64,000 nt of DNA. Origin: Sphaerisporangium perillae (GTDB taxonomy: Bacteria > Actinomycetota > Actinomycetes > Streptosporangiales > Streptosporangiaceae). Shown one piece after another: positions 10,768 to 30,011 of the stretch. The position numbers and the translations under genes were made by a program. The DNA is taken from NCBI RefSeq assembly GCF_023276435.1, contig NZ_JALLPO010000023.1:1-64000 (forward strand). The letters run 5' to 3'. Below the pieces are notes generated by a model. That model saw only the letters and a program-made list of their open reading frames with translations, was not told where the DNA came from and did no database searches. The first letter of the stretch is position 1; every line of letters starts with the position of its first letter.

Positions 10768-10768
10768 C

Positions 10769-13322: not shown

Positions 13323-13349
13323 CGCCGTGCTCCTCCCCTCGGACGTACG

Positions 13350-13377
13350 GGCGGCCGCCACCGGGCGGCCGCCTTTA
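13350..13377 (+). terminator. rho-independent-like terminator after the dehydratase gene
   Basis: GGCGGCCGC (13350-13358), a six-base loop, and GCGGCCGCC (13365-13373) form a perfect 9-bp GC stem followed by TTTA, 28 bases after the stop codon at 13322. Confidence 0.7.
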
Positions 13378-13414
13378 CATTGTAGATCACAAGCATGGAG
13401 GCGGGAGGCAGGGG

Positions 13415-13645
13415 TCAGGGGCGGCCCGGGGCATTGCGGGGGTGGCGTTTGGCGGTGCGCTCGTTGCCGCGGCGGTAGTTGCCGGTCCAGCGGGCCATGA
13501 CCTGCTGCGGGTCGCCGCTCGCCACCTCCTCGAGGAACTCGGCCGCCCGGCTGCCCCTCAGTGTGGCCGCAGGACGGCCTCGATGGGTGATTCGGACGGT
13601 TCCGTCACCGAACTCCGCATAGCCGAATCCCTCTGGTGTCGCCAC
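13415..13645 (-). CDS. small conserved actinobacterial protein, function unknown
   Basis: A 76-residue protein from ATG 13645. It begins MATPEGFGYAEFGDGTVRI and contains RGRPAATLRGSRAAEFLEEV, DPQQVMARWTGNYRRGNERT and a basic tail. Proteins of this size with the RHGRPAAVLRG and MARWTGNYRRGNE motifs recur in actinomycete genomes, though no function is known to me. It is probably cytoplasmic; no signal or membrane segment is visible. It converges on the dehydratase gene, whose terminator lies between them. Confidence 0.75.
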   Translation of the reverse strand: MATPEGFGYAEFGDGTVRITHRGRPAATLRGSRAAEFLEEVASGDPQQVMARWTGNYRRGNERTAKRHPRNAPGRP

Positions 13646-14100
13646 AGTACCGCCCCTTCATCCTGTTCCACCGCATGACGCAACTTTAGGGATGCCGAGC
13701 GTTTGTCATGGTGACAACCACTCAAGAGCCCTTCATGCCCATTGTCGGGTAATTTCCGGATACGCGGTTTCGGCCGGTCGCAAAGTGCGCGATGACGTTG
13801 AACTATTGAAATTTAAATCAGGTATGGGGGCGTTTACATGACGTCCGGTATGTGACTAACGATCCTAGTTAGGGCGGTTTGTCGTTGTAAAGGTTGATTG
13901 ACGCTGCCGTTGCGCGTGCCTTACGGTGACGTCAATCTGAGGCTTTGACGGGAAATGCGAGTTGCCTCACTCAGCCGCGCTCTTCGGAGTGAGGTCGCAG
14001 GGGGACGTGGGAGCGGTCCGACTCCATCGGGCCGGCATAACAGGGGGATTGGGTTGTCTTTAGCACGCGCCCTGACCGGGCGACGTTATGAGAAGTGCCT
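13646..14100 (+). promoter_or_regulatory. long leader and promoter region of the biosynthetic operon
   Basis: About 455 bases without a gene and less GC-rich than its surroundings; an AT-rich stretch lies near 13800-13815. A plausible sigma-70-type promoter is TTGACG at 13898-13903, an 18-base spacer, and TACGGT at 13922-13927, which would leave a leader of about 165 bases before ATG 14101. No further coding frame or clear riboswitch was seen. Confidence 0.5.
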
Positions 14101-15087
14101 ATGAGCCGCCCGACCATGGCCATTACCGGCGGCGCCGGATTCCTCGGATCGCATCTCTGCGAACGATTCCTGCTCGAGGGATATCGGGTCATCTGCGTTG
14201 ACAACTTCCTCACCGGCTCGGTCGCCAACGTCGAACATCTGATGGCCGAGGACGGCTTCCGGCTGATGCGCGCCGACGTGTCGCAGCACCTCTCCGTTCC
14301 CGGCGGCCTGGAGGCCGTCCTGCACTTCGCGTCGCCGGCATCGCCGTCGGACTATCTCCGGTTGCCGATCGACACGCTGCGGGTCGGTTCCAACGGGACG
14401 TTCAACGCGCTCGAACTCGCCCGGGAAAAGGGGGCACGATTCGTGCTCGCCTCGACCTCCGAGACCTACGGCGACCCGCTGGTCCACCCGCAGCCGGAGA
14501 GCTACTGGGGCAATGTGAACCCCATCGGTCCCCGCGGGGTGTACGACGAGGCCAAGCGGTTCGCCGAGGCGATGACCATGGCCTATCGCCGCGCCCACGA
14601 CGTCGATACGGCGATCCTGCGGATCTTCAACACGTTCGGCCCCCGGATGCGGCCCTTCGACGGACGGGCGATCCCGACGTTCGTCCGGCAGGCGCTGCTC
14701 GGCGAGCCGATCACGGTGTCCGGAGACGGCAGCCAGACCAGGTCCATCTGCTATGTGGACGACCTGGTCGAGGGGATCGTCCGGCTGTTCAACTCCAACC
14801 TGGACGGCCCGATCAACATCGGCAATCCGCACGAGGTCTCCATGCTCGCCCTGGCGGAGTGGATCAAGGAGCTCACCGGGTCCTCCTCGGAGATCGCGTT
14901 CATCCCGCGGCCGCAGGACGACCCCACGGTGCGCCGTCCCGACATCACGCTGGCCAGGACCCGGCTCGGATGGGAGCCGCGCGTCCCCATCGAGGAAGGG
15001 CTGCGGCGCACCATCGCCTGGTTCGAGGAGCATTCTCCGCTGTGGAGCGCTCAGGACCAGGCCGACCTCGCCACCACGGCCCTCTAG
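14101..15087 (+). CDS. NAD-dependent nucleotide-sugar decarboxylase/epimerase (UXS-like)
   Basis: A 328-residue extended SDR. The cofactor motif [15 protein letters not shown] is at about residues 8-22; the catalytic triad is Thr/Ser of ASTSETYG with Tyr-x-x-x-Lys in [11 protein letters not shown] near residue 150. The sequence around SPASPSDYL and [11 protein letters not shown] follows UDP-glucuronate decarboxylases (UDP-xylose synthases) more than simple 4-epimerases. It would supply a UDP-pentose for the operon's glycosyltransferase. ATG 14101 (GAGAAG site upstream) is preferred over GTG 14095. It is the first gene of the operon, and the next start follows 8 bases after its stop. Confidence 0.88.
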
Positions 15088-15095
15088 GCCGCCCC

Positions 15096-16649
15096 GTGGA
15101 CACGCTGGCACGGGCCGGCTATGCCGACCTGTTCAGACAAGACCCGAGTCATCCGCACTGGGCCTACGACTACGCCGAGCGGCTGGTCCGGCGCCATGGA
15201 CCGGACCGGCAGGTGGTGATCCAGACCAGCATGTCGCCGAGCGGCCGGTTCCACGTCGGGAACTTCCGTGACACCGCCTGCGCCTACCTGGTGCACCGGG
15301 CGCTGCTGCGGCGCGGCCGCGATTCGGTGATCCTGCTCAGCTTCGACGACTACGACCCGATCCGTCCCAGCCAGGCGGCGGAGCAGCCGGACCTGGCCGG
15401 TTACGGCGCCCGACCGCTCGGGGCCGCCACCGGACGCAGCACCCGGATCTGCCGGCGGTACATCGCCGAACTCAAGCGGATGGGCATCTGCCCCGCCGAC
15501 GCGGACGCCGACGGCCGCACCGCGCCGGAGTCCCTCTGGCAGACCCACTATCAGCACGAGCGGTACCTGGCCGGTTCCTACCGCTCCCTGCAGCGCCGGT
15601 ACCTTCGCGCCTCGGGAAAGCTCGCCAGGCTCCTCGGCGTGCGAAGGCCCGAGAACCTGTTCAGCGTCTACTGCGAGCAATGCGGCCGGGGCACCACGCG
15701 CAACCTGAAGCTCGGGCGGAAGCGGGTGCGCTACGCCTGTGAGTCATGCGGCGCGGTCACGACCACCGACCGCGTCGAACCGGTGAAGCCGTCGTGGGCG
15801 CTGGACTGGACTCTGCGGGTGACCCACGAGGGGATCTGCTGCGAGCCCGCGGGCCAGGACCACTGCAGCGCCGGCAGCACCATGGACCGCACCCGGGCCA
15901 TCTACCACGGGTTCCTGCGCGCGCCGCAGCCGGTCATCGTGCCCTACGGACTCGTCCGCCAGTTCGGCGACCTCGGAAAGGTGTCGGGCTCGCGGGGCGG
16001 CGGGATGACGCTCAGCGATCTGATGGCGGTGATGTCACCCCAGATGATCCTCTGGCTCTACGGCCGGCCCAACTGCCTCTCCGACTTCCGGATCAGCCTG
16101 GAGCGCTCCGCGTTCCTCGGGTACTACGACGAATACGACCGGTTCCTGGCCAGGGTGGCGGCCGGTGACCGCCGCGCGACGGCGCTCTACGAGCTCATCC
16201 GCGGCGAACGCGGTGAAGGTGATCGGCCGCCCGCCGCACCGCCGCCCCGGATGCGCGCCGTCCTCGGCCTGCTGCACGGCAACTGCTACGACGCCGCGCG
16301 AGTGACCGCCATCCTCGGCCCGGCCGCCGCGGCGCGGGTCGCGCGGGGCCGCGCGTGGCTCGCCGCGCACGGGCGATGCTGGATCGACCAGGTCAGGGAG
16401 GCCGAGCCGGAGGCCGGCACGCTGCTGGCCGGCGGGAGGTTGCCCGAGCGGTGGAGCCGCGTGTCCTACCGCCGGCTCTACCTGACCCTGTTCGGCACCG
16501 AGGACGGGCCGCCGCTGAGGCGGCTGGAGGAGATCTTCGGCACCGCGGAACTCGTCGCCGCGATCCGGGCGTACCTCGACCACGCCGAACGCCCGTTGCG
16601 CGAGCGGGTGCTCGCCCTGCTCAGGCCGGGTGATCGCGATGCAGGCTGA
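15096..16649 (+). CDS. class I lysyl-tRNA synthetase-like protein
   Basis: A 517-residue protein from GTG 15096, close to full length for class I LysRS. The HIGH-type signature is HVGN at residues 53-56 within SMSPSGRFHVGNFRDTA. The KMSKS-type loop is GKVSGSRGG near 294-302, and two CxxC pairs (CEQCG 193-197, CESCG 215-219) form a zinc-ribbon insertion. The C-terminal half keeps the helical anticodon-binding region but is divergent. Established role of the family: ATP-dependent charging of tRNA with lysine. Its place in a biosynthetic operon, followed by an overlapping FemX-like gene, suggests it provides aminoacyl-tRNA for product assembly rather than translation, perhaps with a modified lysine. 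Confidence 0.88.
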   Translation: MDTLARAGYADLFRQDPSHPHWAYDYAERLVRRHGPDRQVVIQTSMSPSGRFHVGNFRDTACAYLVHRALLRRGRDSVILLSFDDYDPIRPSQAAEQPDLAGYGARPLGAATGRSTRICRRYIAELKRMGICPADADADGRTAPESLWQTHYQHERYLAGSYRSLQRRYLRASGKLARLLGVRRPENLFSVYCEQCGRGTTRNLKLGRKRVRYACESCGAVTTTDRVEPVKPSWALDWTLRVTHEGICCEPAGQDHCSAGSTMDRTRAIYHGFLRAPQPVIVPYGLVRQFGDLGKVSGSRGGGMTLSDLMAVMSPQMILWLYGRPNCLSDFRISLERSAFLGYYDEYDRFLARVAAGDRRATALYELIRGERGEGDRPPAAPPPRMRAVLGLLHGNCYDAARVTAILGPAAAARVARGRAWLAAHGRCWIDQVREAEPEAGTLLAGGRLPERWSRVSYRRLYLTLFGTEDGPPLRRLEEIFGTAELVAAIRAYLDHAERPLRERVLALLRPGDRDAG

Positions 16650-17628
16650 GATCATCGACCCGACCGCGGAGTCGGTGCCCGCCGACTGGGACCTGTTCCG
16701 CAAGCAAGAGGGTCTCCTCGCCGCCTGGCAGGCCGCCGCCCTGACCGCCGTCGCCTGGTGCGCCCCCCGCCCGGTCTTTCTCGGGCTCGTGCGGGACGGC
16801 GGGCAGGTCGCGGGCATCTTCGCCGGTGATCTGGCCGGGCCGCCGCGACGCCATGGCGGGTACTGCGAGCCCGGATCGCCGCCCCTGACGGGCTGGTTCG
16901 AATGCCGGCTGCTCCTCGGCTTCACCAGCGGTTTCGCGTTCGCGTCGCGGCTTGACGCGAAGGACAGGATCGCCGTGCTGGCCGCGTTCGAGAAGGCGCT
17001 CCGCCGCAGGCTGGGCCGGCACTGCCTGGGCATCCTCTACCGGCAGGTCACGGCCGACATGCTGCCGATGGTGGGCCGCCGTTTCCGGCCGAGGATCGCG
17101 ACCGCGCCCAACACGCTCCTGCCGAATCGCTGGTCGGATCTGGAGGAGTACTTCGCGGGCCTGCCGCGGGACCGCCGGCGAAGGCTGCGGCGCATCCATG
17201 CCGAGGCGGCCGAGCAGACCCAGGTACTGCGGGACGGCGACGCGATCGACCCCGAGCAGGCGAGCCTGCTCGCGCACCTCACCCGGCTCAAACACGGCGA
17301 CCGCGTCCCGCCCATTCCGCCGCGCTATTTCCGGTCCCTCAACGGGGAGGACGGGGTGCGGTACTTCGGGCATCGCGACCAGGAGCGGCTGCTGGCCTTC
17401 GACCTGGCCTTCGACGACGGCCGCCGGCTGGTCACCACCGTCACCGGCTCGCTGGACGTGCGGGACGGCGGCCGCCGGAACCTCTACTTCGACCTGTATC
17501 TCCAGGAGATCGAGCACATGATCGCGCGCGGTCGTGCGGCCTGCGAGTTCGGCAAGGGGATGGCCGAGCTGAAGCAGCGTTTCGGCTGCGAGCTCATTCC
17601 GCAGGCGCTGGTCGTCGCCGCGTGGTGA
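16639..17628 (+). CDS. FemX/GNAT-like aminoacyltransferase (BioF2-type acetyltransferase fold)
   Basis: A 329-residue protein from ATG 16639 (GTG 16630 also possible), overlapping the synthetase gene. The C-terminal part has the pattern of Fem-like/GNAT transferases: YFRSLNGEDGVRYFGHRDQ, LLAFDLAFDDGRRLVTTVTG, then LYFDLYLQEIEHMIARG and CEFGKGMAELKQRFG. The N-terminal half carries a GNAT-like SPPLTGWFECRLLLGF stretch. Fem-type enzymes use aminoacyl-tRNA to form amide or ester bonds on an acceptor outside the ribosome. Direct coupling to a LysRS-like gene makes lysyl-tRNA (or a chlorinated analogue) the likely donor. This substrate assignment is inference. Confidence 0.7.
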   Translation: MQAEIIDPTAESVPADWDLFRKQEGLLAAWQAAALTAVAWCAPRPVFLGLVRDGGQVAGIFAGDLAGPPRRHGGYCEPGSPPLTGWFECRLLLGFTSGFAFASRLDAKDRIAVLAAFEKALRRRLGRHCLGILYRQVTADMLPMVGRRFRPRIATAPNTLLPNRWSDLEEYFAGLPRDRRRRLRRIHAEAAEQTQVLRDGDAIDPEQASLLAHLTRLKHGDRVPPIPPRYFRSLNGEDGVRYFGHRDQERLLAFDLAFDDGRRLVTTVTGSLDVRDGGRRNLYFDLYLQEIEHMIARGRAACEFGKGMAELKQRFGCELIPQALVVAAW

Positions 17629-17654
17629 ACACCCGACATCCGAAGGGACCGGCA

Positions 17655-18017
17655 ATGGAGTTCTCGCAGGCGCTCGCCGCGCATCTGAAGGCGATCGACG
17701 CGCGCGACCTGGACGGGTTTTTGGCCACCGTCCATCCGGACGCGTCGGTGATCCTGCCGAGCGGCACCCTGCTCGAGGGGAAGGACGCGATCGCGCGGTT
17801 CCACACCGCCTGGTTCGACGACCCGGACTGGTCGCTGCGGGCGGAGACCGTCCGGGTCCAGACCGCGGGCGACTCCGCGTTCGCGGTGCTGTCGGTCGTC
17901 TACGACGACCTGGACCCCGACGGGCGGCCCTACCAGAAGACCTACTACCTCACGTTGCTCTTCACCCGTGACGGCGAGCGCTGGCTGCTCGTCCACGACC
18001 AGAACACCTACGCCTGA
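17655..18017 (+). CDS. NTF2-like / SnoaL-type small protein
   Basis: A 120-residue protein of the nuclear-transport-factor-2-like fold. It begins with a helix AAHLKAIDARDLDGFLATV and has HPDASVILPSGTLLEGKDAI and the terminal DGERWLLVHDQNTYA strand typical of ketosteroid-isomerase-like (DUF4440-type) proteins. Members act as small cyclases, isomerases or lyases, or simply bind ligands. ATG 17655 follows the FemX-like gene by 26 bases. Its role in the pathway is not evident. Confidence 0.8.
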   Translation: MEFSQALAAHLKAIDARDLDGFLATVHPDASVILPSGTLLEGKDAIARFHTAWFDDPDWSLRAETVRVQTAGDSAFAVLSVVYDDLDPDGRPYQKTYYLTLLFTRDGERWLLVHDQNTYA

Positions 18018-18018
18018 C

Positions 18019-18837
18019 ATGACGGTACGGGGCTATTCGCAGCGGGCCTGGGAGCGGGCGTACCGGGCCGTGCTCTCGCACGCGTTCGCGACCGTGCCGT
18101 ACTACCGGGAGATGTGGGCCGACGCGGGCGCCAGGCTCGAGGAGCCGGTGACCACCGAGGCGTCGCGACTCGACCGCCTGCTGGGCAGGCTCTACCCGGT
18201 GGCCGACCCGCACGAGCCGCGGCGGGAGCCGCCGGCGTGGCTCGGCGAGCCCGGTGAGCTCTTCGAGGCGCTCCTGCTGACCGGAGGCTACCGGGGCGAC
18301 CGCCCTCTGTTCGAAGTGCGGGAGGCGCTGCTGGACTGGGATCGGATCGCCCCACGCAAGGCCCGGTACCACGTCGTGCTCAGCGGGCGCGCCGAAGTCG
18401 CCGACCCGGCCCTGCGCGCCGCGAGCGTACGGGCCTTCCGTGCCGCTCACGAACCGGATCTGCTCGGAGACGGCGAGCAGGTCACGGAACTGGCCGGTCA
18501 CCCCGGCCGGGTGCGCGTCTTCCTGCGGCGTTCCCCGGCCGAACTCACCAGGACGCCGGCCGGAGGCGGCGAGCCGGCGACGGCGGTTCCGGCGGCGGAG
18601 GTGCTGCATGACGCCCACCTCGGCTATCTGGGCGCCCGGCACCGGGACTGCGGCCAGGTCCACGTGAACTGGCGGCGCGTCCACGTCCACCAGGGGCCGG
18701 CCGGGCCGCTGTTCACGAGCCTGCGGCGCAGGCCGGTCCTCGCGCACGTCAGCCTGCCGGGCACCGCGCACCTTTCGGCCGGCCGTTGCCGGCTGCACGG
18801 CACGCCCATCCTGGCCGCCCGCGAGGAGGCCCCGTGA
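18019..18837 (+). CDS. operon protein of unknown function, PaaK-like N-terminus
   Basis: A 272-residue protein starting at ATG 18019, one base after the previous stop codon. Its first 40 residues (AWERAYRAVLSHAFATVPYY, then REMWADAG) resemble the opening helix and VPYYR motif of the PaaK/CapK-type ligases encoded at 18834 and 23892. After that no ATP-binding loop (TSGSTG) is present, and the remainder, rich in Arg and His with HRDCGQVHVNWRRVHVH near residue 214, is not recognised. It may be a reduced relative or an accessory partner of the adjacent ligase, with whose GTG its stop overlaps by 4 bases. Confidence 0.7.
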   Translation: MTVRGYSQRAWERAYRAVLSHAFATVPYYREMWADAGARLEEPVTTEASRLDRLLGRLYPVADPHEPRREPPAWLGEPGELFEALLLTGGYRGDRPLFEVREALLDWDRIAPRKARYHVVLSGRAEVADPALRAASVRAFRAAHEPDLLGDGEQVTELAGHPGRVRVFLRRSPAELTRTPAGGGEPATAVPAAEVLHDAHLGYLGARHRDCGQVHVNWRRVHVHQGPAGPLFTSLRRRPVLAHVSLPGTAHLSAGRCRLHGTPILAAREEAP

Positions 18838-20177
18838 GCCGCCTGCGCTCAACGATCAACCTGGCGCCGGTCGCCTACCACCTGGCCCGGATCCGGCGGC
18901 GCGAGCGCCTGGGCCATGCCGAGCAGCTGCGGCTCCAGTCCCTCCTGCTGCGCGGCCTGGTCCGGCACGCCTACGACAACGTGCCCCACTACCGGCGGGT
19001 CCTCACCCCGGCACTGGTCGGGGGGCTGCGGACCGCGCACGATCTGGCCGGATTCCCCGTGCTCGACCGGGTGGACCTGCACAACGCCTCGGCCGGCGGC
19101 GAACTGCTCGCCTCGGGGTTCACCGCCGGGAACACCCGCGCGGCCACGACCAGCGGTTCCTCGGGCATCCCGATCACGATCCGCAACTCCGAACGGGACC
19201 TGGGCTACCTGCGGGCGACGTATCTGCAGGACATCCTCACCAGCGGGCTGCGCCCCACCGACCGGATCGCCTACTTCCGGGTCAACCCGTTCCTGCGCCA
19301 TCCACTGGAGCGGCTGGGTGTGCTGCGCAACTTCCACATCCCGACCGGCCGGCCGCTGGACGAGCAGGTGGCGGCGTTCCTCTCGGCCCGGCCCACCTTC
19401 CTGGTCGGGTTCCCCAACGTCATCAGCAGCATCGTCGAGGAACTGCAGCGGCGCGGCATCAGGTACCAGGGCGTCCGCACCGTGCTGTTCGGCGGCGAGC
19501 GGCTGACCCCGACCGCGCGTGCGCACCTCCTCGCGTACTTCGGCGCGGCCCATCGTGAGGTGTACGCCTCCGTCGAGGTCTTCACCATCGCCCGCACCTG
19601 CCCGGAGGGGACGATGCATCTGCGGTCGGCCGATCTGGTGGTGGAGGTCGAGCACGCGGACGGGACCGTCTCCGTCGAGGACGGCGAGGGCGACATCCTC
19701 GTCACCCGGCTGCACAGCGAGGCGATGCCCCTGATCCGCTATCGGCTCGGCGACCGGGTGCGGATCAGCCCCAACGACTGCCCGTGCGGGGTGGCGCGGA
19801 CTCCCATCCTGCGGGAGGTGGTCGGCCGGGACCAGGACCGCATCTCCGGCGCCGACGGCAGGCGCTACTACGGCGACTTCATCACCTATGCCGTGCAGGA
19901 CTTTCCCGAAGTGAACCGGATGCAGCTGATCCAGCGGCGGCCTGGGGCGATCGAGGTCCTGGTGGTGCTGACCGAGGGCGCCCGCCTCGGCGTGCCGGCC
20001 GACATCGAGCGCGCCGTCCGGCGTAAGGCGCCCGGCCTGGACGTCGCCGTCCGCCAGGTCCGGGAGATCACCCCCGAGGCCAACGGAAAGATCAAGATCG
20101 TGAAGGTGCTCGCTCCTTCCGGGGCGCCTTCCGCCGACACACCGTCAACTGAGAAGGGTCATGTGGCAGATGTCTGA
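18834..20177 (+). CDS. PaaK/CapK-type adenylate-forming enzyme (1)
   Basis: A 447-residue member of the phenylacetate-CoA-ligase-like group often found in polysaccharide and natural-product clusters. Features are AYDNVPHYRRVL near residue 45, the phosphate loop TTSGSSGIPITIR near 102-114, FGGERLTP and YASVE motifs near 220-250, and LIRYRLGDRVRI near 300. A cysteine pair NDCPCG follows, and the C-terminal subdomain ends EANGKIKIVKVL with the hinge lysine. It activates a carboxylate as acyl-AMP. GTG 18834 overlaps the upstream stop. The substrate is not evident. Confidence 0.87.
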   Translation: MSRLRSTINLAPVAYHLARIRRRERLGHAEQLRLQSLLLRGLVRHAYDNVPHYRRVLTPALVGGLRTAHDLAGFPVLDRVDLHNASAGGELLASGFTAGNTRAATTSGSSGIPITIRNSERDLGYLRATYLQDILTSGLRPTDRIAYFRVNPFLRHPLERLGVLRNFHIPTGRPLDEQVAAFLSARPTFLVGFPNVISSIVEELQRRGIRYQGVRTVLFGGERLTPTARAHLLAYFGAAHREVYASVEVFTIARTCPEGTMHLRSADLVVEVEHADGTVSVEDGEGDILVTRLHSEAMPLIRYRLGDRVRISPNDCPCGVARTPILREVVGRDQDRISGADGRRYYGDFITYAVQDFPEVNRMQLIQRRPGAIEVLVVLTEGARLGVPADIERAVRRKAPGLDVAVRQVREITPEANGKIKIVKVLAPSGAPSADTPSTEKGHVADV

Positions 20178-20922
20178 CTCCCCCCTGAAGGAAAAGATCG
20201 ACCAGCGGCTCGCCGCGCATCTGGAGACCGCGTACGCGGACGAGCACGTCGTCCGCAAGCTCTCCCAGCACTACCGCCGCGAGGGATACGTGAAGCTGCG
20301 CGGACTGGTACCCGACGACCTGTTCAAGGAGGTCAGCGACGAGGTCCACCGGCTGCTTGACCTGCACGAACGGCGCATCGACATCCACCTCGCCGAGACC
20401 GGCAACTCACCCCGGTACATGAGCACCATCAGCCAGCAGGCGATCGCCAAGGACAGCGAGCTCATCCCCGCCATCTACGAATCCCAGGCGATGATGGGCT
20501 TCTTGTCGCGGCTCGCGGCGCAGCCGGTCGTCCAGTGCCCCTGGGAGGAGGAGAAGTACATCGCCATCCGCCAGCACAAGAAGGGCGACACGCACGGCTG
20601 GCACTGGGGCGACTTCAGCTTCACCGTGATCTGGATCATCGAGGCGCCGGCGGCGGAGTTCGGCGGCCAGCTCCAGTGCATCCCGCACACCGACTGGAAC
20701 AAGCAGGATCCGCGGGTCGAGGAGTACCTCCAGGCGCACCCGATCAAGACCTACGGGCACGCGACCGGGGACCTCTACTTCCTTCGCTCCGACACCACCC
20801 TGCACCGCACCATCCCGCTGAACGCCGACAGGACCCGCATCATCCTCAACACCTGCTGGGGCAGTGAGACGGACGCCAAGAAGGCGCCGTCCCACGAGAC
20901 CATGCACGCGATGTTCGACTGA
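20170..20922 (+). CDS. Fe(II)/2-oxoglutarate BesD-family amino-acid halogenase (predicted)
   Basis: A 250-residue protein from ATG 20170 (ATG 20161 is possible, but the GAGAAGG site suits 20170 better). The metal motif is H145-W146-G147 with distal His212 in TTLHRTIPL. A glycine stands where hydroxylases carry the Asp/Glu ligand, as in radical halogenases such as BesD. The spacing from the first to the second histidine is 67 residues, the same as the H137/H204 I recall for BesD. At a constant offset of eight, R82, E128, H142, D148 and N227 match BesD residues I recall as lysine-binding. BesD chlorinates free lysine at C4. Predicted role: lysine chlorination for this operon. The numbering is from memory and should be checked. 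Confidence 0.8.
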   Translation: MSDSPLKEKIDQRLAAHLETAYADEHVVRKLSQHYRREGYVKLRGLVPDDLFKEVSDEVHRLLDLHERRIDIHLAETGNSPRYMSTISQQAIAKDSELIPAIYESQAMMGFLSRLAAQPVVQCPWEEEKYIAIRQHKKGDTHGWHWGDFSFTVIWIIEAPAAEFGGQLQCIPHTDWNKQDPRVEEYLQAHPIKTYGHATGDLYFLRSDTTLHRTIPLNADRTRIILNTCWGSETDAKKAPSHETMHAMFD

Positions 20923-20924
20923 CG

Positions 20925-21956
20925 ATGTCGAGCACGCATACGACGGTCGCGCATGCGGGCAGCAAGGATGCCCGCATGCCGCGGCCCGGCATCACCGCGA
21001 TGATCCCGTGCTACAACGAGGCCGACTGCGTCGAGCGGGCGTACCGGGAGATCCGGTCGGAGCTGGTGAGCTACGACGACGTCGAACTGCTCTTCATCGA
21101 CGACGGCAGCACCGACGGCACCCTTGAGGCCATCAAAGGCTTCGCGGCCGAGGACCCGCTGGTGAAGTACATCTCCTTCGCCCGCAACTTCGGCCTGGAG
21201 GCCGCGTTCTCGGCCGGCTTCAAATACGCCTCCAAGCCGTGGACGGTGCAGTTCGACGCCGATCTGCAGTCTCCGCCGCACGAGATGCACCGCCTGGTGC
21301 AGAAGGTGCTCGAAGGCTACGACGTCGTCTTCGCGGTCCGCGAGGACCGGCGGGATCCCTGGTACCGGCGGCTCGGCACCCGCGGGCACCAGATGATCGC
21401 GAGCCGCTGGCTCGGCATCGAGCTGCCGCTCGGGGCGTCGGTGTTCCGGATCGTCAGGACCAGCGTGGCGCGCAAGGTGGTGGACAGCCGGCTCTCCACG
21501 CCGTACTTCATCGCCACCGCGCCGCTGCTCGGCGCCCGGTACACGACGCTGCCCACCTCGCACCGTCCGCGCGTCGACGGTCAGGGCAAATGGAACCTGC
21601 GCAAGCTGTTCGGGCACGCCCTCGAGCTCTTCGTCGGATTCTCGTTCCGGCCGCTGGTCTGGCTGAACGGCCTCGCCGCCGCCATGGTCACGGCCGGAAT
21701 CGTGATCTTGGGACTCGCCTCGGCGGGACGGCTCGGCCCGGCCGAGGTGGCCGCCGCGAGCCTGGTGACCGGCCTGGTCACGCTGACCCTGCTCGCGGTG
21801 GCCGCCCGCTATCTCGTACGGGTGATGCGCGTGCAGGCGATCGGCGTCCCCCGCTACCAGATCCGGGAGGCCAACATCCCGATCCGCGCGGACGAGGCCC
21901 TGTACGGCCACGAGACGCCCTACGCCATCGCCGACATCTGGGAGAACGCAAGTTGA
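20925..21956 (+). CDS. polyprenyl-phosphate glycosyltransferase (GT2, GtrB/ArnC/DPM1-like)
   Basis: A 343-residue membrane glycosyltransferase from ATG 20925. The GT-A domain contains ITAMIPCYNEADCVERAY, LLFIDDGSTDGT, SFARNFGLEAAFSAGF and the metal-binding FDADLQSPP motif near residue 110. Two transmembrane helices lie at about 245-265 and 275-300, the layout of enzymes that load a sugar onto polyprenyl phosphate at the membrane. It would take the sugar made by the UXS-like or epimerase enzymes of the operon and create a lipid-linked donor. It starts 2 bases after the halogenase stop, and its own stop overlaps the next start. Confidence 0.92.
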   Translation: MSSTHTTVAHAGSKDARMPRPGITAMIPCYNEADCVERAYREIRSELVSYDDVELLFIDDGSTDGTLEAIKGFAAEDPLVKYISFARNFGLEAAFSAGFKYASKPWTVQFDADLQSPPHEMHRLVQKVLEGYDVVFAVREDRRDPWYRRLGTRGHQMIASRWLGIELPLGASVFRIVRTSVARKVVDSRLSTPYFIATAPLLGARYTTLPTSHRPRVDGQGKWNLRKLFGHALELFVGFSFRPLVWLNGLAAAMVTAGIVILGLASAGRLGPAEVAAASLVTGLVTLTLLAVAARYLVRVMRVQAIGVPRYQIREANIPIRADEALYGHETPYAIADIWENAS

Positions 21957-23161
21957 GGAACCTCATCGTGCTCGGCGGAGGCGAGGACCAGATCCCCGCT
22001 TACCGCGAGGGCCGCAGGCTCGGTTACCGGGTGATCGGCGTGGATCAGCGGCCCGACGCCCTCGGGGCCGCCGAGGCCGATCAGTTTCTCTGCATGACGA
22101 GCAGAGATCCCGAGGGGATCGCCCACGCGCTGGGGCCGATCGACGTCGCCGCGGTCATCTCGCCGGCCAGCGACGCGGCCCAGGAGTCGGTCGCCGAGCT
22201 GAGCAGGATCTACCGGACCGCTCATCAGCCCGCGCCCGGCGCCCTGCGGTGCTCGGTGGACAAGGGGTTCTTCCGCGAGGTGATCGATCGGCTGGGGCTG
22301 CCCGCCTACCGCTACGCCCAGTGCGACAGCGCCGAAGAGCTCGTCAAGGCGGCGGCGGGCATGGACTACCCCCTGATCGTCAAGCCGGCCGACTCCTCCG
22401 GCAGCAAAGGGATCACCGTGATCGACGGTCCCGCCGAGCTGCCGGGCGCGATCGAGCATGCCTGGAAGTACTCCTTCTCCCGCCAGGTGATCATCGAGGA
22501 GCTGGTGGCCGGCCGGCACTGCGCCGTGGAGTCCTTCTTCGCCGACGGCCGGCTCGCCTTCATGGCGGTCACCGACCGCACCATCACCGGACCGCCGTCG
22601 ATGATCAGCATCTCGCACGTGGTGCCCGCCGACCTCGACGAGGCCGTCTACGCGCGGCTCGGAGAAGCGGTCACCGCGATCTGCGCGGAGGTCGGCCACC
22701 AGCGGGGGCCGGTCAACTTCGACTTCGTGCTCACGGCCGCGGGCGAGATCCTCTTCATCGAGATGGGCGCGCGGCTGGGCGGCAACGGCATGCCGCTGAT
22801 GGTCCGGCACGCCTTCGGGCTGAACACCGTCGAGGCGGCCATCCGGCTGGCCCTGGGCGAGCCTCTGCGGATCACCACCTCGCATCGGCGCACCGCGGCC
22901 CTGCGGATCCTGACCGCCGACGTCGACGGCGTGCTCACCGCCATCGAGGGGCTGGACGACCTCAAGCGGATGCCCGAGGTCGTCGAGGTGCAGGTGTTCA
23001 AGTCGGCGGGCGACCGGGTGCGCGCCTACACACAGGCGGGCCACAAGCTCGGCTACCTGGTGATGGTCGCCGACACCAGGCGGCTGCTGGAAAGCGCTCT
23101 CGACGAAGCCCTGCGCACGCTCCGTTTCGTGATCGAGCCGGATACGAAAGGTTCCGAATGA
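21953..23161 (+). CDS. ATP-grasp ligase
   Basis: A 402-residue carboxylate-amine ligase beginning at TTG 21953, which overlaps the previous stop (TTGA). NLIVLGGGEDQIPAYREGR forms the N-terminal Rossmann-like domain. DYPLIVKPADSSGSKGIT is the ATP-binding grasp loop near residue 145, FSRQVIIEELVAG follows, and GEILFIEMGARLGGNGMP near 280 holds the magnesium-binding Glu and Asn. Members join an amine to an acyl phosphate. In the known BesD pathway the ligase BesA is also an ATP-grasp enzyme, so a peptide or amide bond to the predicted halogenated lysine is an attractive but unproven role. Confidence 0.9.
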   Translation: MRNLIVLGGGEDQIPAYREGRRLGYRVIGVDQRPDALGAAEADQFLCMTSRDPEGIAHALGPIDVAAVISPASDAAQESVAELSRIYRTAHQPAPGALRCSVDKGFFREVIDRLGLPAYRYAQCDSAEELVKAAAGMDYPLIVKPADSSGSKGITVIDGPAELPGAIEHAWKYSFSRQVIIEELVAGRHCAVESFFADGRLAFMAVTDRTITGPPSMISISHVVPADLDEAVYARLGEAVTAICAEVGHQRGPVNFDFVLTAAGEILFIEMGARLGGNGMPLMVRHAFGLNTVEAAIRLALGEPLRITTSHRRTAALRILTADVDGVLTAIEGLDDLKRMPEVVEVQVFKSAGDRVRAYTQAGHKLGYLVMVADTRRLLESALDEALRTLRFVIEPDTKGSE

Positions 23162-23889
23162 CCCTCCGACGACACCTCGGCTTCCTGGTTTTCGTGGCGC
23201 TGGCGGTGGCCGCCGCCGCGTTCGTCTGGTTCGGCCTGCCGCACGATCGGGAGGTGAAGTCGCTGTGGATCTTCCTGGTGAAGCTGCTGCCCTTCGTCTT
23301 CGCGACCGAGGCCGTGGCCCGGCTCGACGTGGACCTGGCCAGGCGGCTCCGGCTTCCCCTGTTGCTCGTCCCGGCGGCCTTCCTGGTCTACTTCCTCTAC
23401 TTCGTCCCCAAGATCTTCTTCTATGGGGCCGTGGAGTCCGGGACCAGGGACGCCTACTACAACCTGTACTACAACGTCCTGACGCTGACGCCGCTGATCA
23501 TCCTGTCGCTGGTCCTGGCCTACCGGCTGGGCCGCGGGGACGCGGCGACGGTCCGCAGGCTCGCCTACGGGATGCTGCTGCTGATGCTCTCGGGCCTTGA
23601 GGACCTGGCCTTCCTCACCGTCAACCACCACACCGACCCGGCCTACAGCACCATCCCGGCCGTGTGGGAGTGGGCCTCGCACATGACCGTGTTCATCGGC
23701 CACCCGCCCACCAAGTACGAGGCGTACGCCTTCATCACGGTCCACGTGCTGCTGGCGCTCGCCGTCTTCCTCAGCCCGCAGCGCTGGTGGGACGCGCTGG
23801 CCCGCAAGGTGGTCCCCTCGAGGCCGCCCGAGGCCGGCGAGACCCCTGACAGCAGGGACGCCCGCCCGGTCCAGCACGAGAGCGTCTAG
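23158..23889 (+). CDS. polytopic membrane protein of unknown function
   Basis: A 243-residue integral membrane protein whose ATG overlaps the ATP-grasp stop (ATGA). Hydrophobic segments are near residues 7-27, 38-56, 68-88, 108-126, 137-155 and 198-216, giving about six helices. A soluble C-terminal tail rich in Pro/Glu/Arg follows. The stretches DAYYNLYYNVLTLTPLIIL and EDLAFLTVNHHTDPAY hold polar and histidine residues inside the membrane zone that could form an active or binding site. No family was recognised. Context suggests a role at the membrane stage of product assembly. Confidence 0.75.
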   Translation: MTLRRHLGFLVFVALAVAAAAFVWFGLPHDREVKSLWIFLVKLLPFVFATEAVARLDVDLARRLRLPLLLVPAAFLVYFLYFVPKIFFYGAVESGTRDAYYNLYYNVLTLTPLIILSLVLAYRLGRGDAATVRRLAYGMLLLMLSGLEDLAFLTVNHHTDPAYSTIPAVWEWASHMTVFIGHPPTKYEAYAFITVHVLLALAVFLSPQRWWDALARKVVPSRPPEAGETPDSRDARPVQHESV

Positions 23890-23891
23890 CG

Positions 23892-25184
23892 ATGCTGATC
23901 CGCGAGGCGGCCTACGTCCCGCTCACCATCGCGCGCCAGTACGGCGGCGTCGCGGGACTGCGGCGCCGTCAGCTCCGCGAGATCAACAAGATGCTTGAGC
24001 TGGCCCGCACCCGGGTGCCGTACTACCGCGACGACCCCCGCTACGCCCGCGGCCAGCTCGGCGGCCTCGCCGAGCTGGCCGAGCTGCCCCTGGTCGACAA
24101 GCAGGTGCTGCGCGAGCAGCCACTGGACCGCATGCTCGCCGACGGCGTCGATCCCGGCCGCTGCCTGTCCTTCCAGACCAGCGGCAGTACGGGGCGACGG
24201 GTCCGGATCATGCACGACCAGGACAGCCACGACTACCACATGGCGGCCTGCGTGCGCCGGTTCCTGGCCACCGCCCGCTACCTGCCGACCGACCGGCTCA
24301 GCCACATCCGCCCGTTCGCCCCGCCCGCCAGGCTGTTCGAGCGGTTCAAGCTGTTCCGGCGGCACGTGATCCTCTCGCATCGGCCGATGCGGGAGATCAA
24401 GGCGGAGCTGCTGGCCAACCGGCCCAAGGTCCTCATCGGCTACCCCGTGCACCTGCGGGCGCTGCTGCGCGAGCTCACTCCCGCGGAGCTCGCGCTCCTG
24501 AAGCGGACGCTCCGGATCGTCATGACCGAATCGGAGCTGCTGCTTCCCGAGCATCGGGCGATGTTCGCCGAGCGTTTCGGCGCGCCGGTCTTCGACGAGT
24601 ACTCGGCGTTCGAGGTGCTCAACGTCGCCTACGACTGCCGGTACGGCCGCGCGCACCTGGGCGAGGACCGTATCTACTGCGAGATCGTGGACGAGCACGG
24701 CAAGCCCGTCCCGGACGGGGAGCCCGGGCAGGTGGTCGTCACCGCCTTCCTGGAGCGGGCCATGCCACTCCTGCGCTACAGCCTCGGGGACATCGGGCTC
24801 ATCGAACCCGGCCGGTGCCGTTGCGGGCGCCGGTTCCGCACCCTGCGGCTCACCACGGGGCGCAGCAACGACTTCGTCACGCTCCCGTCCGGCGAGCGGC
24901 TCTACCCCGACGCCTTCCTGCACCTGGCCGCCACCCATCCGGGGATCAGCGAATGCTTCGTGCACCAGGACGCCGAGGGGCTGGTGCGCGTGCACGTCGT
25001 CCCCAGCGGCGGCCTCTCCGGCGGCGAGGAGGAGAGCAAGGTCTTCGCGACCGTTCGCGACAAGCTCTTCGCCCTGGCCGACGGCGAGTTCCCGCTGGAG
25101 GTCGTGGCCGTCGAATCGGTGGAGATCACCCCGGGAGGCAAGGGCAGGTTCGTCACCTCCGACTACGCCGCGCCGCCCGCATGA
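23892..25184 (+). CDS. PaaK/CapK-type adenylate-forming enzyme (2)
   Basis: A 430-residue second ligase of the PaaK/CapK group, starting at ATG 23892 two bases after the membrane-protein stop. It has LELARTRVPYYRDDPR, the ATP loop SFQTSGSTGRRVRIMH near residue 95, VFDEYSAFEVLN, LLRYSLGDIGLIEPG near 295 and a CRCGRRF cysteine pair. It ends with EITPGGKGRFVTSDY, in which lysine is the catalytic C-terminal residue. Having two distantly related enzymes of this type in one operon suggests that two different acyl groups are activated, or one chain is activated twice. Confidence 0.87.
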   Translation: MLIREAAYVPLTIARQYGGVAGLRRRQLREINKMLELARTRVPYYRDDPRYARGQLGGLAELAELPLVDKQVLREQPLDRMLADGVDPGRCLSFQTSGSTGRRVRIMHDQDSHDYHMAACVRRFLATARYLPTDRLSHIRPFAPPARLFERFKLFRRHVILSHRPMREIKAELLANRPKVLIGYPVHLRALLRELTPAELALLKRTLRIVMTESELLLPEHRAMFAERFGAPVFDEYSAFEVLNVAYDCRYGRAHLGEDRIYCEIVDEHGKPVPDGEPGQVVVTAFLERAMPLLRYSLGDIGLIEPGRCRCGRRFRTLRLTTGRSNDFVTLPSGERLYPDAFLHLAATHPGISECFVHQDAEGLVRVHVVPSGGLSGGEEESKVFATVRDKLFALADGEFPLEVVAVESVEITPGGKGRFVTSDYAAPPA

Positions 25185-26410
25185 GAGTGCGGGCCCCGGC
25201 GCCGAAGCTCATGGCGGCGCTGGTCGGCGGGCGCGCCGCCTTCCGGGGGACCACCCTGCTGGTCAACATCGCGCTGCTCGCGGCCTGGGGCTCCGCGGGG
25301 TACTCCGAATACGCCCAGGCGATGGGGGCCGCCACGTTCCTCACTCCCCTCGCCTCGATCGGGATCGAGAAATGCGCCCTGAAGCTGATCCCGCGGGTCC
25401 GGCACACCGGCCCCCTGCTGGTCGGCATCTACGTGGCGCTGGCCGGGGCGCTCCTGCTGGTGGCGCTCGCCGTGCTGGCGGCCGTCCTGTTCTTCCGCCA
25501 GGACGGCCCCGGCCCGCCGGCCGCCCTGGCCGGGCTCTACGCGATCTTCCTGGGCGGCAACCAGGTACTGGTCGGCCTGTGCCGGGCGGTCGGCAGGCCG
25601 GGCAGGGACGTCGCCAACCATCTCGTGCTGGCCGCGGCCCTGGCCTGCTGGACAGGGGTGGCGGTGCTGTACGCCGCGCCGATGGTGTTCCTGGCCCTGT
25701 GCGTCGCGACCCTGGCCGTGCTCAACGCGGTGTTGCTGGCCGGCCTGCGGCCCCGCTTCGGCGGCCTGCGCCGCCGCACTCTGGTGCGCGCCGCGGTCGG
25801 GACATCCCTGCTGATGGCGGTCCCCGATGTGGTCGGCGGCCTGTCGACGAGCCTGCTCTTCCTGGCGCTCTCGGTGAGCGGCGCGGACGCGGAGAGCAGC
25901 GGGCTGTACATGGCCTTCGTCGCCTCCTCGACGTTCCTGAACGCCTTCGGCTACCTGCTCCGCATCGTGCAACCCGACGTCTCCCGGGCGTTGCACCAGC
26001 GTGACCTGACCGGCGTGCACGACCGGCTGGCCCGCTGGCTGCGCCTGCTCATGCTGACCGGGACGCCGTACCTGCTGGTCGTCCTCGGCGCGGCGCTGCT
26101 GTCGCTGCGCCCGCTCGGCGGCGTGGGGGTCGTCATCCTCTACGCCGCCTGTGTCCCGATCATCTTCGCGATGGGCAGCGCGAACTACCTGATGGAGAAC
26201 GCCACCCCCGAGGCGCTGGCCGCCACCGCCACGGGCGCGGCGATCTCGCTGGTGGCGGTCGGGGCGCTGGCCTTCCTCGTCGTGCCCTGGGCCGGAGCCC
26301 TCGGCGCGGTGGCCGTGCTCGCCGCGGGCGAACTCGTGCACGCGGCGGCCGTCCTGCGCTGGCTGGGACCACGGCGCGCGCTCTCCCATCAACCGATCCC
26401 CGGGGTCTGA
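25181..26410 (+). CDS. flippase-like polytopic membrane protein (polysaccharide exporter type)
   Basis: A 409-residue protein whose ATG 25181 overlaps the preceding stop. About twelve hydrophobic helices run through the sequence. The paired arrangement and the start (LMAALVGGRAAFRGTTLLV) followed by YSEYAQAMGAATFLTPLASI resemble Wzx/MurJ-type lipid-linked oligosaccharide flippases, though no strict motif exists for this fold. It would move the lipid-linked product across the membrane. Preceding an epimerase and following the assembly genes, it fits an export step. The assignment is by topology and context. Confidence 0.75.
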   Translation: MRVRAPAPKLMAALVGGRAAFRGTTLLVNIALLAAWGSAGYSEYAQAMGAATFLTPLASIGIEKCALKLIPRVRHTGPLLVGIYVALAGALLLVALAVLAAVLFFRQDGPGPPAALAGLYAIFLGGNQVLVGLCRAVGRPGRDVANHLVLAAALACWTGVAVLYAAPMVFLALCVATLAVLNAVLLAGLRPRFGGLRRRTLVRAAVGTSLLMAVPDVVGGLSTSLLFLALSVSGADAESSGLYMAFVASSTFLNAFGYLLRIVQPDVSRALHQRDLTGVHDRLARWLRLLMLTGTPYLLVVLGAALLSLRPLGGVGVVILYAACVPIIFAMGSANYLMENATPEALAATATGAAISLVAVGALAFLVVPWAGALGAVAVLAAGELVHAAAVLRWLGPRRALSHQPIPGV

Positions 26411-26476
26411 GCGGCACATGCCCGCCCCCACCTCAGCGCACCACGCCGTCACGGCTGGTGGATAGGAGTTTCTGTG

Positions 26477-27493
26477 ATGACCCCCACCTCACTGGTCACC
26501 GGCGGCGCCGGGTTCATCGGCTCGCACGTCGCGGCCGACCTGGTCCGGGCCGGCCACCGGGTCGTCGTGCTGGACGACCTGTCCGGAGGGGACGCGGCCA
26601 ACGTGCCAGGCGGCGCCCACTTCCACCAGGGCAGCGTCTGCGACGCCGAGGTGGTCGACGCGCTGTTCGCCGAGTGGAGGTTCGACTACGTCTTCCACCT
26701 GGCCGCGTACGCCGCCGAGGGGCTGAGCCATTTCATCAAGCGCTACAACTACACCAACAACGTGATCGGCAGCATCAACCTCATCAACGCGTCGGTGAAC
26801 GCCGAGACGGTACGGTGCTTCGTCTTCACCTCCTCCATCGCCGTCTACGGGCACGCCGAGCCGCCGATGACCGAGGACCTCGTGCCGGCGCCCGTCGACC
26901 CGTACGGGATCGCCAAGTACGCGGTCGAGCAGGAGCTGAAGGTCACCCACGAGATGTTCGGCCTTCCGTACATCATCTTCCGCCCGCACAACGTCTACGG
27001 CGAGCGGCAGAACATCGGCGACCGCTACCGCAATGTCATCGGCATCTTCATGAACCAGATCCTGCGCGACGAGGAGTGCACCATCTTCGGGGACGGCGAG
27101 CAGACCAGGGCGTTCAGCCACATCGACGACGTCGCGCTCCCGATCGCCCGGTCGATCGGCAACCCGCGGGCGTACGGGGAGACCTTCAACATCGGCGGCG
27201 ACACTCCGTACACGGTCAACGAGCTGGCCGCCGCGGTCGCCTCGGCCATGGGCGCGCCCCTGCGGGTGCGGCACCTGCCGGCCCGCCACGAGGTGGTCCA
27301 CGCCTACTCCTCCCACCAGAAGGCGCGCGACCTCCTCGGCGTCGGGGCCGACGCGATGCCGCTCGCCGGCGGGCTCGCGCAGATGGCCGCCTGGGCCAAG
27401 AAGCACGGACCGCAGGAGCCGTCGGTCTTCTCCGGGATCGAGGTGGCCCGCAACATGCCCCCCTCGTGGCAGGCCCTGATCGTCCCCTCCTGA
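26477..27493 (+). CDS. NAD-dependent nucleotide-sugar 4-epimerase (GalE-like)
   Basis: A 338-residue extended SDR from ATG 26477 (GTG 26474 also possible; TAGGAG site upstream). TGGAGFIGSHVAADLVRAGH binds NAD, FTSSIAVYGHAEPP carries the catalytic Ser/Thr, and DPYGIAKYAVEQEL holds the Tyr-x-x-x-Lys pair near residues 146-150. The body is that of UDP-hexose 4-epimerases and dTDP-sugar dehydratases (RPHNVYGERQNIGDRYRN). It is the last gene of the operon, 66 bases after the flippase gene. It makes an epimerised or decorated nucleotide sugar; the exact sugar is unknown. Confidence 0.9.
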   Translation: MTPTSLVTGGAGFIGSHVAADLVRAGHRVVVLDDLSGGDAANVPGGAHFHQGSVCDAEVVDALFAEWRFDYVFHLAAYAAEGLSHFIKRYNYTNNVIGSINLINASVNAETVRCFVFTSSIAVYGHAEPPMTEDLVPAPVDPYGIAKYAVEQELKVTHEMFGLPYIIFRPHNVYGERQNIGDRYRNVIGIFMNQILRDEECTIFGDGEQTRAFSHIDDVALPIARSIGNPRAYGETFNIGGDTPYTVNELAAAVASAMGAPLRVRHLPARHEVVHAYSSHQKARDLLGVGADAMPLAGGLAQMAAWAKKHGPQEPSVFSGIEVARNMPPSWQALIVPS

Positions 27494-27563: not shown

Positions 27564-28265
27564 GTGCGGGACGATATACCGGTGTACAACATCTCAGAGG
27601 AACCGGTTCTGCGGCCCGTGGCACGGTCGATCACCCGCACCGACCTCGTCGCCGACTCGATCAGGACCGCGATCCTGTCCGGCCGGATCAAGCCGGGCGA
27701 GACGCTGGTCGAGCGCCGGCTCGCCGAGCAACTCGGGGTCTCCAAGACCCCCGTGCGCGAGGCGCTGATCGGGCTCGCCTCGACCGGGCTGGTGGTCATC
27801 AGCCCCAACCGGGGCGTCAGCGTCCGCGTGCTGGACGCCGCCGACCTGCGCAAGGCCCAGGAGCTCCGTCTCCTGCTCGAGCCGTGGGCGGTGGCGTCCT
27901 CCACGCGCATGGGCCGCCCGGCCACCGTGGCGGACGCCCGGCAGGCGCTCGGCGAGGCCCGCGAGCTGCTGTCGGGAGAGGACCCGACGGCCCTCAGCCT
28001 GGCCAACCGCCGCTTCCACCGAGCGCTCTACTCCGGCTGCGACAACGAGCTTGTCACCACCCAGCTGGACAACCTGCAGGACCTCACCGCGCTCGGCACG
28101 GTGACCGTGCTGTGGCGGCACTGGCCGACCTGGCGCGAGGAGTTCGCCGAGCACGAGGACATCCTCGCCGCCGTTGAACAGGGCAACGCCACCCTCGCCG
28201 AACGCCTGATCAGATCGCACGTCAAGCGCAGCGTCACCCACCTCAGCCGCCCCCGCAAAGCCTGA
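27564..28265 (+). CDS. GntR-family regulator, FCD subfamily
   Basis: A 233-residue regulator from GTG 27564 (GTG 27582 is an alternative start, which would put the operator upstream of the coding region). The winged helix is SIRTAILSGRIKPGETLVE, RRLAEQLGVSKTPVREAL, then GLVVISPNRGVSVRVL, at about residues 30-95. The all-helical FCD domain follows, with LLEPWAVASSTRM and the metal-binding-type NRRFHRALYSGC (Asn/His) near 152. It converges with the RraA-like/DHDPS genes, and its start region shares an 18-bp motif with the promoter of that operon. It probably represses sugar-acid catabolism and responds to the substrate. Confidence 0.92.
   Translation: MRDDIPVYNISEEPVLRPVARSITRTDLVADSIRTAILSGRIKPGETLVERRLAEQLGVSKTPVREALIGLASTGLVVISPNRGVSVRVLDAADLRKAQELRLLLEPWAVASSTRMGRPATVADARQALGEARELLSGEDPTALSLANRRFHRALYSGCDNELVTTQLDNLQDLTALGTVTVLWRHWPTWREEFAEHEDILAAVEQGNATLAERLIRSHVKRSVTHLSRPRKA
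27570..27587 (-). promoter_or_regulatory. GntR operator candidate, copy 1
   Basis: Read on the minus strand this is GTACACCGGTATATCGTC. It differs at only three C/T positions from 29994-30011 upstream of the DHDPS-type gene, giving the consensus GTAYAYCGGTAYATCGTC, itself two GTAYAYCG half units. It overlaps the 5' end of the GntR gene, suggesting autoregulation. Confidence 0.65.
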
Positions 28266-28267
28266 GC

Positions 28268-28293
28268 GCGGGGAGCCGCGCGCGGCTCCCCGC
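28268..28293. terminator. bidirectional hairpin between convergent genes
   Basis: An 11-bp perfect stem GCGGGGAGCCG / CGGCTCCCCGC with a CGCG loop sits exactly between the GntR stop (28265) and the RraA-like stop (28293-28295). It serves as a shared terminator for the two converging genes. No T-tract is present on either side. Confidence 0.65.
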
Positions 28294-29959: not shown

Positions 29960-29993
29960 CACGATCTTCCCTCCACGGCGAATCCTGATTCTG

Positions 29994-30011
29994 GTATATC
30001 GGTACATCGTC
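29994..30011 (+). promoter_or_regulatory. GntR operator candidate, copy 2
   Basis: GTATATCGGTACATCGTC, matching 15 of 18 positions of the copy at 27570-27587 (all three differences are C/T). It begins 34 bases upstream of ATG 29959, where a repressor would block the minus-strand operon. It also lies beside a TTGACA box (30023-30028) facing the decayed LacI gene. Confidence 0.65.

Follow-up and report, generated by a model that had tools for sequence, protein, structure and literature searches.

A recurrent actinomycete gene cassette combining a HalB-type lysine halogenase with a paralogue of class I lysyl-tRNA synthetase

A 64,000-nucleotide stretch of the Sphaerisporangium perillae genome (positions 1 to 64,000 of contig NZ_JALLPO010000023.1; hereinafter, the window) encodes a relative of class I lysyl-tRNA synthetase (LysRS) in the same run of genes as an amino acid halogenase, ligases and enzymes of sugar nucleotide metabolism, which raises the question why a relative of a translation enzyme should be found in such company. 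The original prediction for this region, which was made from the sequence alone, described an operon of 13 genes on one strand. This operon is real: positions 14101-27493 of the plus strand are tiled by 13 open frames (g1 to g13), and the set recurs at eight loci, with 13 of the 13 genes at seven of these and 11 at the eighth. The answer developed here starts from what is directly observed, namely the gene content of the cassette, the identity of one of its halogenases to HalB, the co-inheritance of its genes, the separation of its synthetase-like protein from housekeeping LysRS, and its insertion.

A recurrent cassette and its insertion site

The eight loci (class A) come from Streptosporangiaceae, two Streptomyces and one metagenome-assembled genome (MAG) of Kineosporiaceae, and this recurrence rules out chance clustering. 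In the order, LysRS-like proteins (E <= 1e-40) were found in 5 of 297 genomes, the window genome included, and in each of the five the 13 genes appear in an unchanged order, interrupted in one genome by an additional gene between g12 and g13. A scan of a named genome collection yielded four loci, in Streptosporangium carneum, a Sphaerisporangium MAG, S. saharense and the Kineosporiaceae MAG, the first three of which appear to coincide with loci among these five. The LysRS-like match in the last of these shows 53% identity, and the stretch fetched, which contains 11 of the 13 genes, has no SnoaL gene, includes one more PaaK-like gene and ends before the place of g13. Among 396 genomes sampled across the phylum (E <= 1e-60), the LysRS-like protein was matched only in the window's own genome.

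In Streptomyces, the halogenase family PF23169 is present in 27 of 295 genomes (28 places, 20 of which were read). Two of these 20 loci sit among cassette genes, and upon extension both were found to hold all 13, rearranged and spread over both strands. The LysRS-like profile detects exactly two of the 295 genomes, the same two that bear the cassette with a HalB-type halogenase. In support of the original prediction, the co-inheritance of synthetase, transferase and halogenase is borne out by the eight loci, by the 2 of 295 Streptomyces genomes and by the joint absence of these genes from the class B loci described below. A plasmid location of the cassette was rejected because the plasmid search gave just two weak matches (28%).

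The genes flanking the cassette encode a GntR regulator and an IlvD/Edd-type dehydratase, the latter identified by eye. These flanking genes lie approximately 95 bp apart in two genomes of the same genus (L139 and L140; distances from tblastn ends), which identifies the cassette as an insertion. The distance is about 2.2 kb in a third genome of the genus (L138), and in a fourth (L137) the dehydratase was not seen before the contig end. A search for repeats common to both flanks found none of use. The surroundings (11598-13322 and 27564-34745) look like a split locus for pentose use, with the dehydratase, the GntR regulator, a dihydrodipicolinate synthase-like protein, an alpha-L-arabinofuranosidase and ABC-uptake genes. 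In the vicinity of each Streptomyces cassette are SARP and LuxR-type regulators and a UDP-glucose 6-dehydrogenase; because the two genomes are close, this resemblance may reflect synteny.

The halogenase, the synthetase paralogue and its neighbor

The g7 protein (20170-20922, plus strand) matches PF23169, the HalD/BesD family, with 330 bits (cut-off 26), and is 68.6% identical to HalB of Streptomyces wuyuanensis (SwHalB; PDB 7u6i/7u6j; 406.6 bits to 7u6i, 218.4 bits to BesD). The halogenase of Streptomyces cassette L067 is 100% identical to HalB (7u6i) over 242 residues, and that of the second Streptomyces cassette is 93.8% identical. All nine halogenase copies inspected contain the motifs HGWHWGD, with HWG as the HxG element, and TTLHR, which align with BesD, HalB and HalD; the HxG motif and the second His are presumably the iron ligands. 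Because one cassette encodes HalB itself, the predicted presence of a lysine halogenase is supported. The 4-chlorolysine product that was predicted along with it was rejected, given that HalB, the kin of g7, is named an L-lysine 5-chlorinase, in contrast to BesD, which chlorinates C4 (PMC10187165). The score of g7 with the BesD equivalog (4-chlorinase) profile NF042920, 244.7 bits, falls below the cut-off of 450. With HalB, a published 5-chlorinase, among the cassette halogenases, the expected product is 5- and not 4-chlorolysine, and the window halogenase very probably chlorinates lysine at C5, to judge from its sequence. By general chemistry, which is not evidence here, ring closure of a 5-chloro-6-amino side chain could yield an aziridine, and attack by the alpha amine on 5-chlorolysine could give 5-(aminomethyl)proline. 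A review gives free lysine as the substrate of SwHalB and reports that the resulting chlorolysine was incorporated into a peptide during in vitro translation (PMC8407142).

The second subject of the question, g2 (15096-16649, plus strand; 517 amino acids), combines HVGN and KVSGS motifs, a zinc ribbon and a C-terminal domain, and matches PF01921 (164 bits) and PDB 1irx (E 9e-35). It shares the catalytic fold and the HIGH- and KMSKS-type motifs with housekeeping class I LysRS, the family defined by TIGR00467, and differs in falling below the cut-off of this equivalog profile (133.9 against 147.55 bits; 303.5 for the housekeeping enzyme of the genome), in forming a separate clade and in being additional to the ordinary enzyme. 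The latter, a class I LysRS of 577 amino acids, is encoded on another contig of the same genome and shows 28-31% identity to g2 in the matched parts, so that g2 is not the sole LysRS of the genome, a possibility that would have spoken against the original prediction. The possibility that the ordinary enzyme is a class II LysRS was also rejected, since the only PF00152 match reads by eye as an aspartyl-tRNA synthetase. In a tree of the 8 cassette proteins and 12 housekeeping class I LysRS, all eight cassette copies form one clade (support 100/100), whose branch measures 2.63 changes per site; the tool warned of long branches meeting in this tree. The view of g2 as a paralogue distinct from the housekeeping enzyme is upheld by this clade and by the presence of two class I LysRS in the genome.

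The signature motifs, H[VI]GN and K[VI]SGS, are kept in all eight cassette proteins. Comparison with the housekeeping enzymes reveals 32 invariant shared positions (start Met counted) and 11 fixed differences, among them Ser45 in the cassette proteins against Gly in 12 of the 12 housekeeping enzymes; we take this Gly to lie in the lysine pocket (no paper on this was found). The KMSKS-type motif is followed by 210-254 residues in the cassette proteins and by 207-251 in the housekeeping ones. Profile comparison of the two C-terminal regions gave a match of 76.7% (E 2e-5), rising to 92% (E 6e-7; reversed control 0.1%) when the cassette proteins are taken together with the class C proteins described below (E-values of these profile comparisons are for one comparison). 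In class I LysRS, this C-terminal region serves in anticodon binding. On the strength of these sequence features, g2 is likely to charge tRNA with lysine or chlorolysine; that it would charge chlorolysine in particular is possible, with somewhat less than an even chance.

The LysRS-like gene adjoins a FemX-like gene, g3 in the window (16639-17628, plus strand), in all eight cassette loci. The g3 protein matches the PF13480 family with 23.3 bits, just above the cut-off of 22, as do four of five aligned members; FemAB_like is matched by one of the five (E 0.011), and the Streptomyces copy has no match. Lys312 of g3 is invariant in all eight copies, and its equivalence to Lys305, the catalytic Lys of FemX (PMC12945691), is a guess from position. 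An AlphaFold2 model of g3 (mean pLDDT 42.7) is too poor for judging the presence of a double GNAT fold. Taken together with its neighborhood, g3 is likely to be a tRNA-dependent transferase.

Core, module and alternative explanations

Whether these genes work together was addressed through loci in which some of them are lacking. A profile for g10, a membrane protein of the cassette (alignment A5 omits g10 of L013, where the stretch held a stop), finds matches at E <= 1e-5 in 59 of the 287 order genomes searched, many of them weak. Besides the 5 class A genomes, 17 more, picked mainly by score, were read, leaving 37 unread; the 17 comprise 2 of class B, 11 of class C, L159, L167 (class D), L168 and L169. 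The class B loci (G223 and G268) contain nine cassette genes with 67-93% identity and in the same order, and lack exactly the LysRS-like, FemX-like, g5 and halogenase genes (g2, g3, g5 and g7); both genomes belong to the order sample searched and are not among its LysRS-like or halogenase matches. In a tree of g8, g9 and g10 combined, class B falls within the Streptosporangiaceae group (100/100), with Streptomyces and Kineosporiaceae outside, and its placement beside the window copy is not resolved (62/26). Joint loss of the four genes in class B appears to be the simpler reading. The original prediction regarded operons consistently lacking halogenase and synthetase as grounds for its rejection; two such operons do exist, but they also lack the FemX-like gene and g5, and are nested within the class A clade. 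That four genes located at three places in class A are jointly absent in class B argues for their joint working.

The class C loci (L155-L158 and L160-L166) all contain g8, g9 and g10, together with two or three FemX-like genes, and 10 of the 11 have g5 and 10 of the 11 a flippase-like gene; no halogenase or PaaK-like match was found in any of them at E <= 1e-6. Their LysRS-related protein measures 238-333 residues between the approximate position of the zinc ribbon and the stop. The C-terminal LysRS segment matches in all 11 loci and the zinc-ribbon segment in 7, whereas the catalytic-domain segments match nothing in any of the 11 at E <= 1e-3, and HIGH- and KMSKS-type patterns are absent from all 11. 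Between class C and cassette proteins, the C-terminal domains match at 99.8% (E 9e-28); class C alone matches the housekeeping C-terminal region at 46.8% (E 2e-4). Hence all 8 class A loci have both the catalytic domain and the halogenase, and none of the 11 class C loci has either, a contrast that involves few independent events, class C having been found through g10 and not through an even survey. On these sequence comparisons, the LysRS-like, FemX-like, g5 and halogenase genes behave as a module. Among the other g10 loci, L159 contains two FemX-like copies, with no adaptor found at the locus; the class D locus L167 (G205, 9666-18167) encodes GT2, ATP-grasp, two PaaK-like, flippase-like and g10 relatives and none of the quartet; L168 and L169 have g10 and little else.

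We propose, with roughly even confidence, that this is a mobile biosynthetic cassette consisting of a core (g1, g4, g6 and g8-g13) and an add-on module (g2, g3, g5 and g7) responsible for tRNA charging and transfer of 5-chlorolysine. The core would convert UDP-glucuronate to UDP-xylose and perhaps its 4-epimer, load the pentose onto polyprenyl phosphate by the GtrB/ArnC-type transferase, add acyl or aminoacyl parts by the PaaK-like and ATP-grasp ligases, and move the product out by the flippase. In the module, the halogenase would convert free lysine to 5-chloro-L-lysine, g2 would activate 5-chlorolysine (or lysine) and charge tRNA with it, and g3 would move the (chloro)lysine from tRNA to the core product. 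The halogenation step is the only one with published biochemistry, obtained for the identical protein of one cassette; we infer charging, transfer and acceptor from sequence. A polyprenyl-linked pentose as the acceptor is a tentative and rather doubtful assignment, whereas a secreted secondary metabolite as the product is moderately likely. The gene combination suggests ribosome-free attachment of a chlorinated amino acid to a sugar-linked product. More speculatively, and with odds clearly below even, g2 could be a natural synthetase that evolved for 5-chlorolysine outside translation and that forms part of a broader family of clusters for tRNA-dependent glycoconjugates, its halogenase-free relatives having been reduced to a zinc-ribbon/anticodon-domain adaptor that brings ordinary aminoacyl-tRNA to the paired FemX-like transferases.

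Several observations weigh against this proposal. HalD-family halogenases occur in 15 order genomes, and 10 of the 15, all of which were read (11 places), lack the LysRS-like protein. Some non-cassette halogenases, including the HalB-like ones of L040, L042 and L079 (54-62% identical to HalB), lie near long frames that by eye resemble nonribosomal peptide synthetases (NRPS). The L036 locus (G084, 7722-10891) is a decayed cassette in which short pieces of the LysRS-like, ATP-grasp and flippase genes surround a halogenase frame that is open and shows 81% identity to the window copy. The cassette halogenases, this remnant included, do not come out as a single clade: they call for two changes on the tree and group together in 2% of bootstrap trees, although the well-supported branches are compatible with a single origin. 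The joint absences reflect few evolutionary events, class B representing a single lineage and class C a single group. Sequence assignment of g3 to FemX is weak, PDB searches with it giving no match, and the acceptor, which is deduced from gene neighbors, is the least certain part of the scheme.

Among the alternatives, the one that survives best is decoration of the cell envelope, whereby (chloro)lysine would be placed on a polyprenyl-linked wall sugar and the product would stay in the envelope. The GtrB/ArnC-type transferase, the nucleotide-sugar genes, the flippase-like protein and the spread of g10 relatives given above are all consistent with such a role; the rare and patchy occurrence of the cassette (5 of 297 order genomes), the intact insertion site in two relatives and the SARP regulators in Streptomyces make it rather unlikely. 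A tRNA-free route, in which g2 would adenylate (chloro)lysine and hand it directly to the acceptor, with g3 as an ordinary acyltransferase, appears unlikely: the C-terminal domain of g2 keeps its length and its relationship to the class I LysRS C-terminal region, and class C retains this domain without the catalytic one, even though PF13480 is a broad GNAT family and synthetase paralogues that ligate without tRNA have been described (PMC2922099). The remaining alternative is self-resistance, with g2 as a tolerant substitute for a housekeeping class I LysRS poisoned by the product or by chlorolysine. Resistance copies of other synthetases are known from antibiotic clusters. In the present case, the kept catalytic and C-terminal landmarks of g2 and the possible toxicity of SwHalB chlorolysine, which can enter a peptide in vitro (PMC8407142), are outweighed by the low identity to housekeeping LysRS noted above, the very long branch, the FemX-like gene always adjoining and a class C relative that, having no catalytic domain, cannot replace a synthetase, and this explanation is improbable.

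The tRNA-dependent module has a precedent in valanimycin biosynthesis, where VlmL, a paralogue of seryl-tRNA synthetase (SerRS), and VlmA, a GNAT-fold aminoacyl-tRNA transferase, likewise pair a synthetase paralogue with a FemX-like transferase, without NRPS (PMC2922099, PMC12945691). The same arrangement, a paralogue beside a transferase in one cluster, is found at 8 of 8 cassette loci, but the synthetase is a class I LysRS in place of a class II SerRS, and genes for amino acid halogenation and for sugar, polyprenyl and flippase functions are added. MprF/LysX lipid lysylation also involves lysyl-tRNA-dependent GNAT-fold transfer and, in actinomycetes, a dedicated LysRS (PMC2922099); that LysRS belongs to class II and forms a fusion with the MprF part, whereas the cassette enzyme is of class I, separate and accompanied by a halogenase. 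The bes cluster for beta-ethynylserine shares with the cassette a free-lysine halogenase of the same family, BesD; family searches recognized no BesB or BesC relatives among the 13 genes. An ATP-grasp ligase is also part of the bes cluster; to our knowledge, the cluster has no synthetase-transferase pair. In the literature searched (titles and abstract starts, with few subscription papers), we found no paper on this cassette and no description of the gene neighborhood of SwHalB; the parts are of known kinds, and the combination is new to us, without a claim of priority.

The cassette offers HalB, a structurally solved enzyme, both a candidate for its native pathway and a partner enzyme that can be tested. 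Should g2 prefer 5-chlorolysine, nature would already have supplied a synthetase for a halogenated amino acid that genetic-code work could use. The class C proteins would exemplify the retention of a synthetase C-terminal domain in the absence of the catalytic one.

Remaining genes and neighboring features

With the starts chosen here, gaps or overlaps are at most 63 bp at all 12 junctions and at most 26 bp at 11 of them, including four 4-base overlaps (g5/g6, g8/g9, g9/g10 and g11/g12). A third-position-GC filter was passed by 11 of the 13 genes; the frames with g9 and g10 were unlisted because far-upstream starts were taken. All remaining genes are likewise on the plus strand. Downstream of the LysRS/FemX pair lies g5 (18019-18837), for which Pfam and NCBIfam searches gave no match; a shortened PaaK was rejected (profile probabilities of just 4.4% and 11.8%). 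A homolog of UDP-glucuronate decarboxylase (UDP-xylose synthase; g1, 14101-15087; 361.8 bits with UXS1 structures) and a GalE-like nucleotide-sugar epimerase (g13, 26474-27493; galE 153.9 bits, below the equivalog cut-off) form the two ends of the set, and g8 (20925-21956) encodes the GtrB/ArnC-type polyprenyl-phosphate glycosyltransferase (125.7 and 105.5 bits). The predicted sugar-nucleotide and polyprenyl-glycosyltransferase genes are thus in place; the predicted flippase (g12, 25181-26410) is a weak assignment, without a Pfam match and made through a Streptomyces homolog that reaches 22.6 bits with Polysacc_synt, below the cut-off.

A SnoaL-like/DUF4440 protein is encoded by g4 (17655-18017; 47.8 bits). 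The two PaaK-like adenylate-forming ligases are g6 (18834-20177; 110 bits with NCBIfam profiles, below cut-off) and g11 (23892-25184; PaaK structures, profile E 2e-24); their PaaK likeness derives from NCBIfam and PDB profiles, with Pfam AMP-binding above the cut-off for g11 (32.9 bits) and below it for g6. The ATP-grasp ligase g9 (21953-23161) has an L-amino-acid-ligase C-terminal domain (LAL_C2, 75.1 bits) and matches PDB 4dim best (81.6 bits), followed by the L-amino acid ligase BL00235 (63.7 bits). The membrane protein g10 (23158-23889) has no Pfam match above cut-off and none from PDB searches. As originally predicted, Pfam-type searches detect no NRPS or polyketide synthase (PKS) domain in any of the 13 genes, so that mining keyed on such modules would probably pass over the cassette.

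No tRNA genes were found by ARAGORN in the window or in 12 related stretches, and no Rfam elements inside the operon. Between g12 and g13, both Streptomyces cassettes and G172 have a gene for a sodium/hydrogen exchanger (L010, 15532-17100; L067, 2563-4488), of which a fragment is present in G093; the window cassette has no room for it. Elsewhere in the window, the minus strand contains a match to Rfam RF02743 (Sernc389, a Saccharopolyspora antisense RNA family; 57379-57973, 181 bits) and a gene for an APH phosphotransferase family protein (46415-47413, 116 bits).

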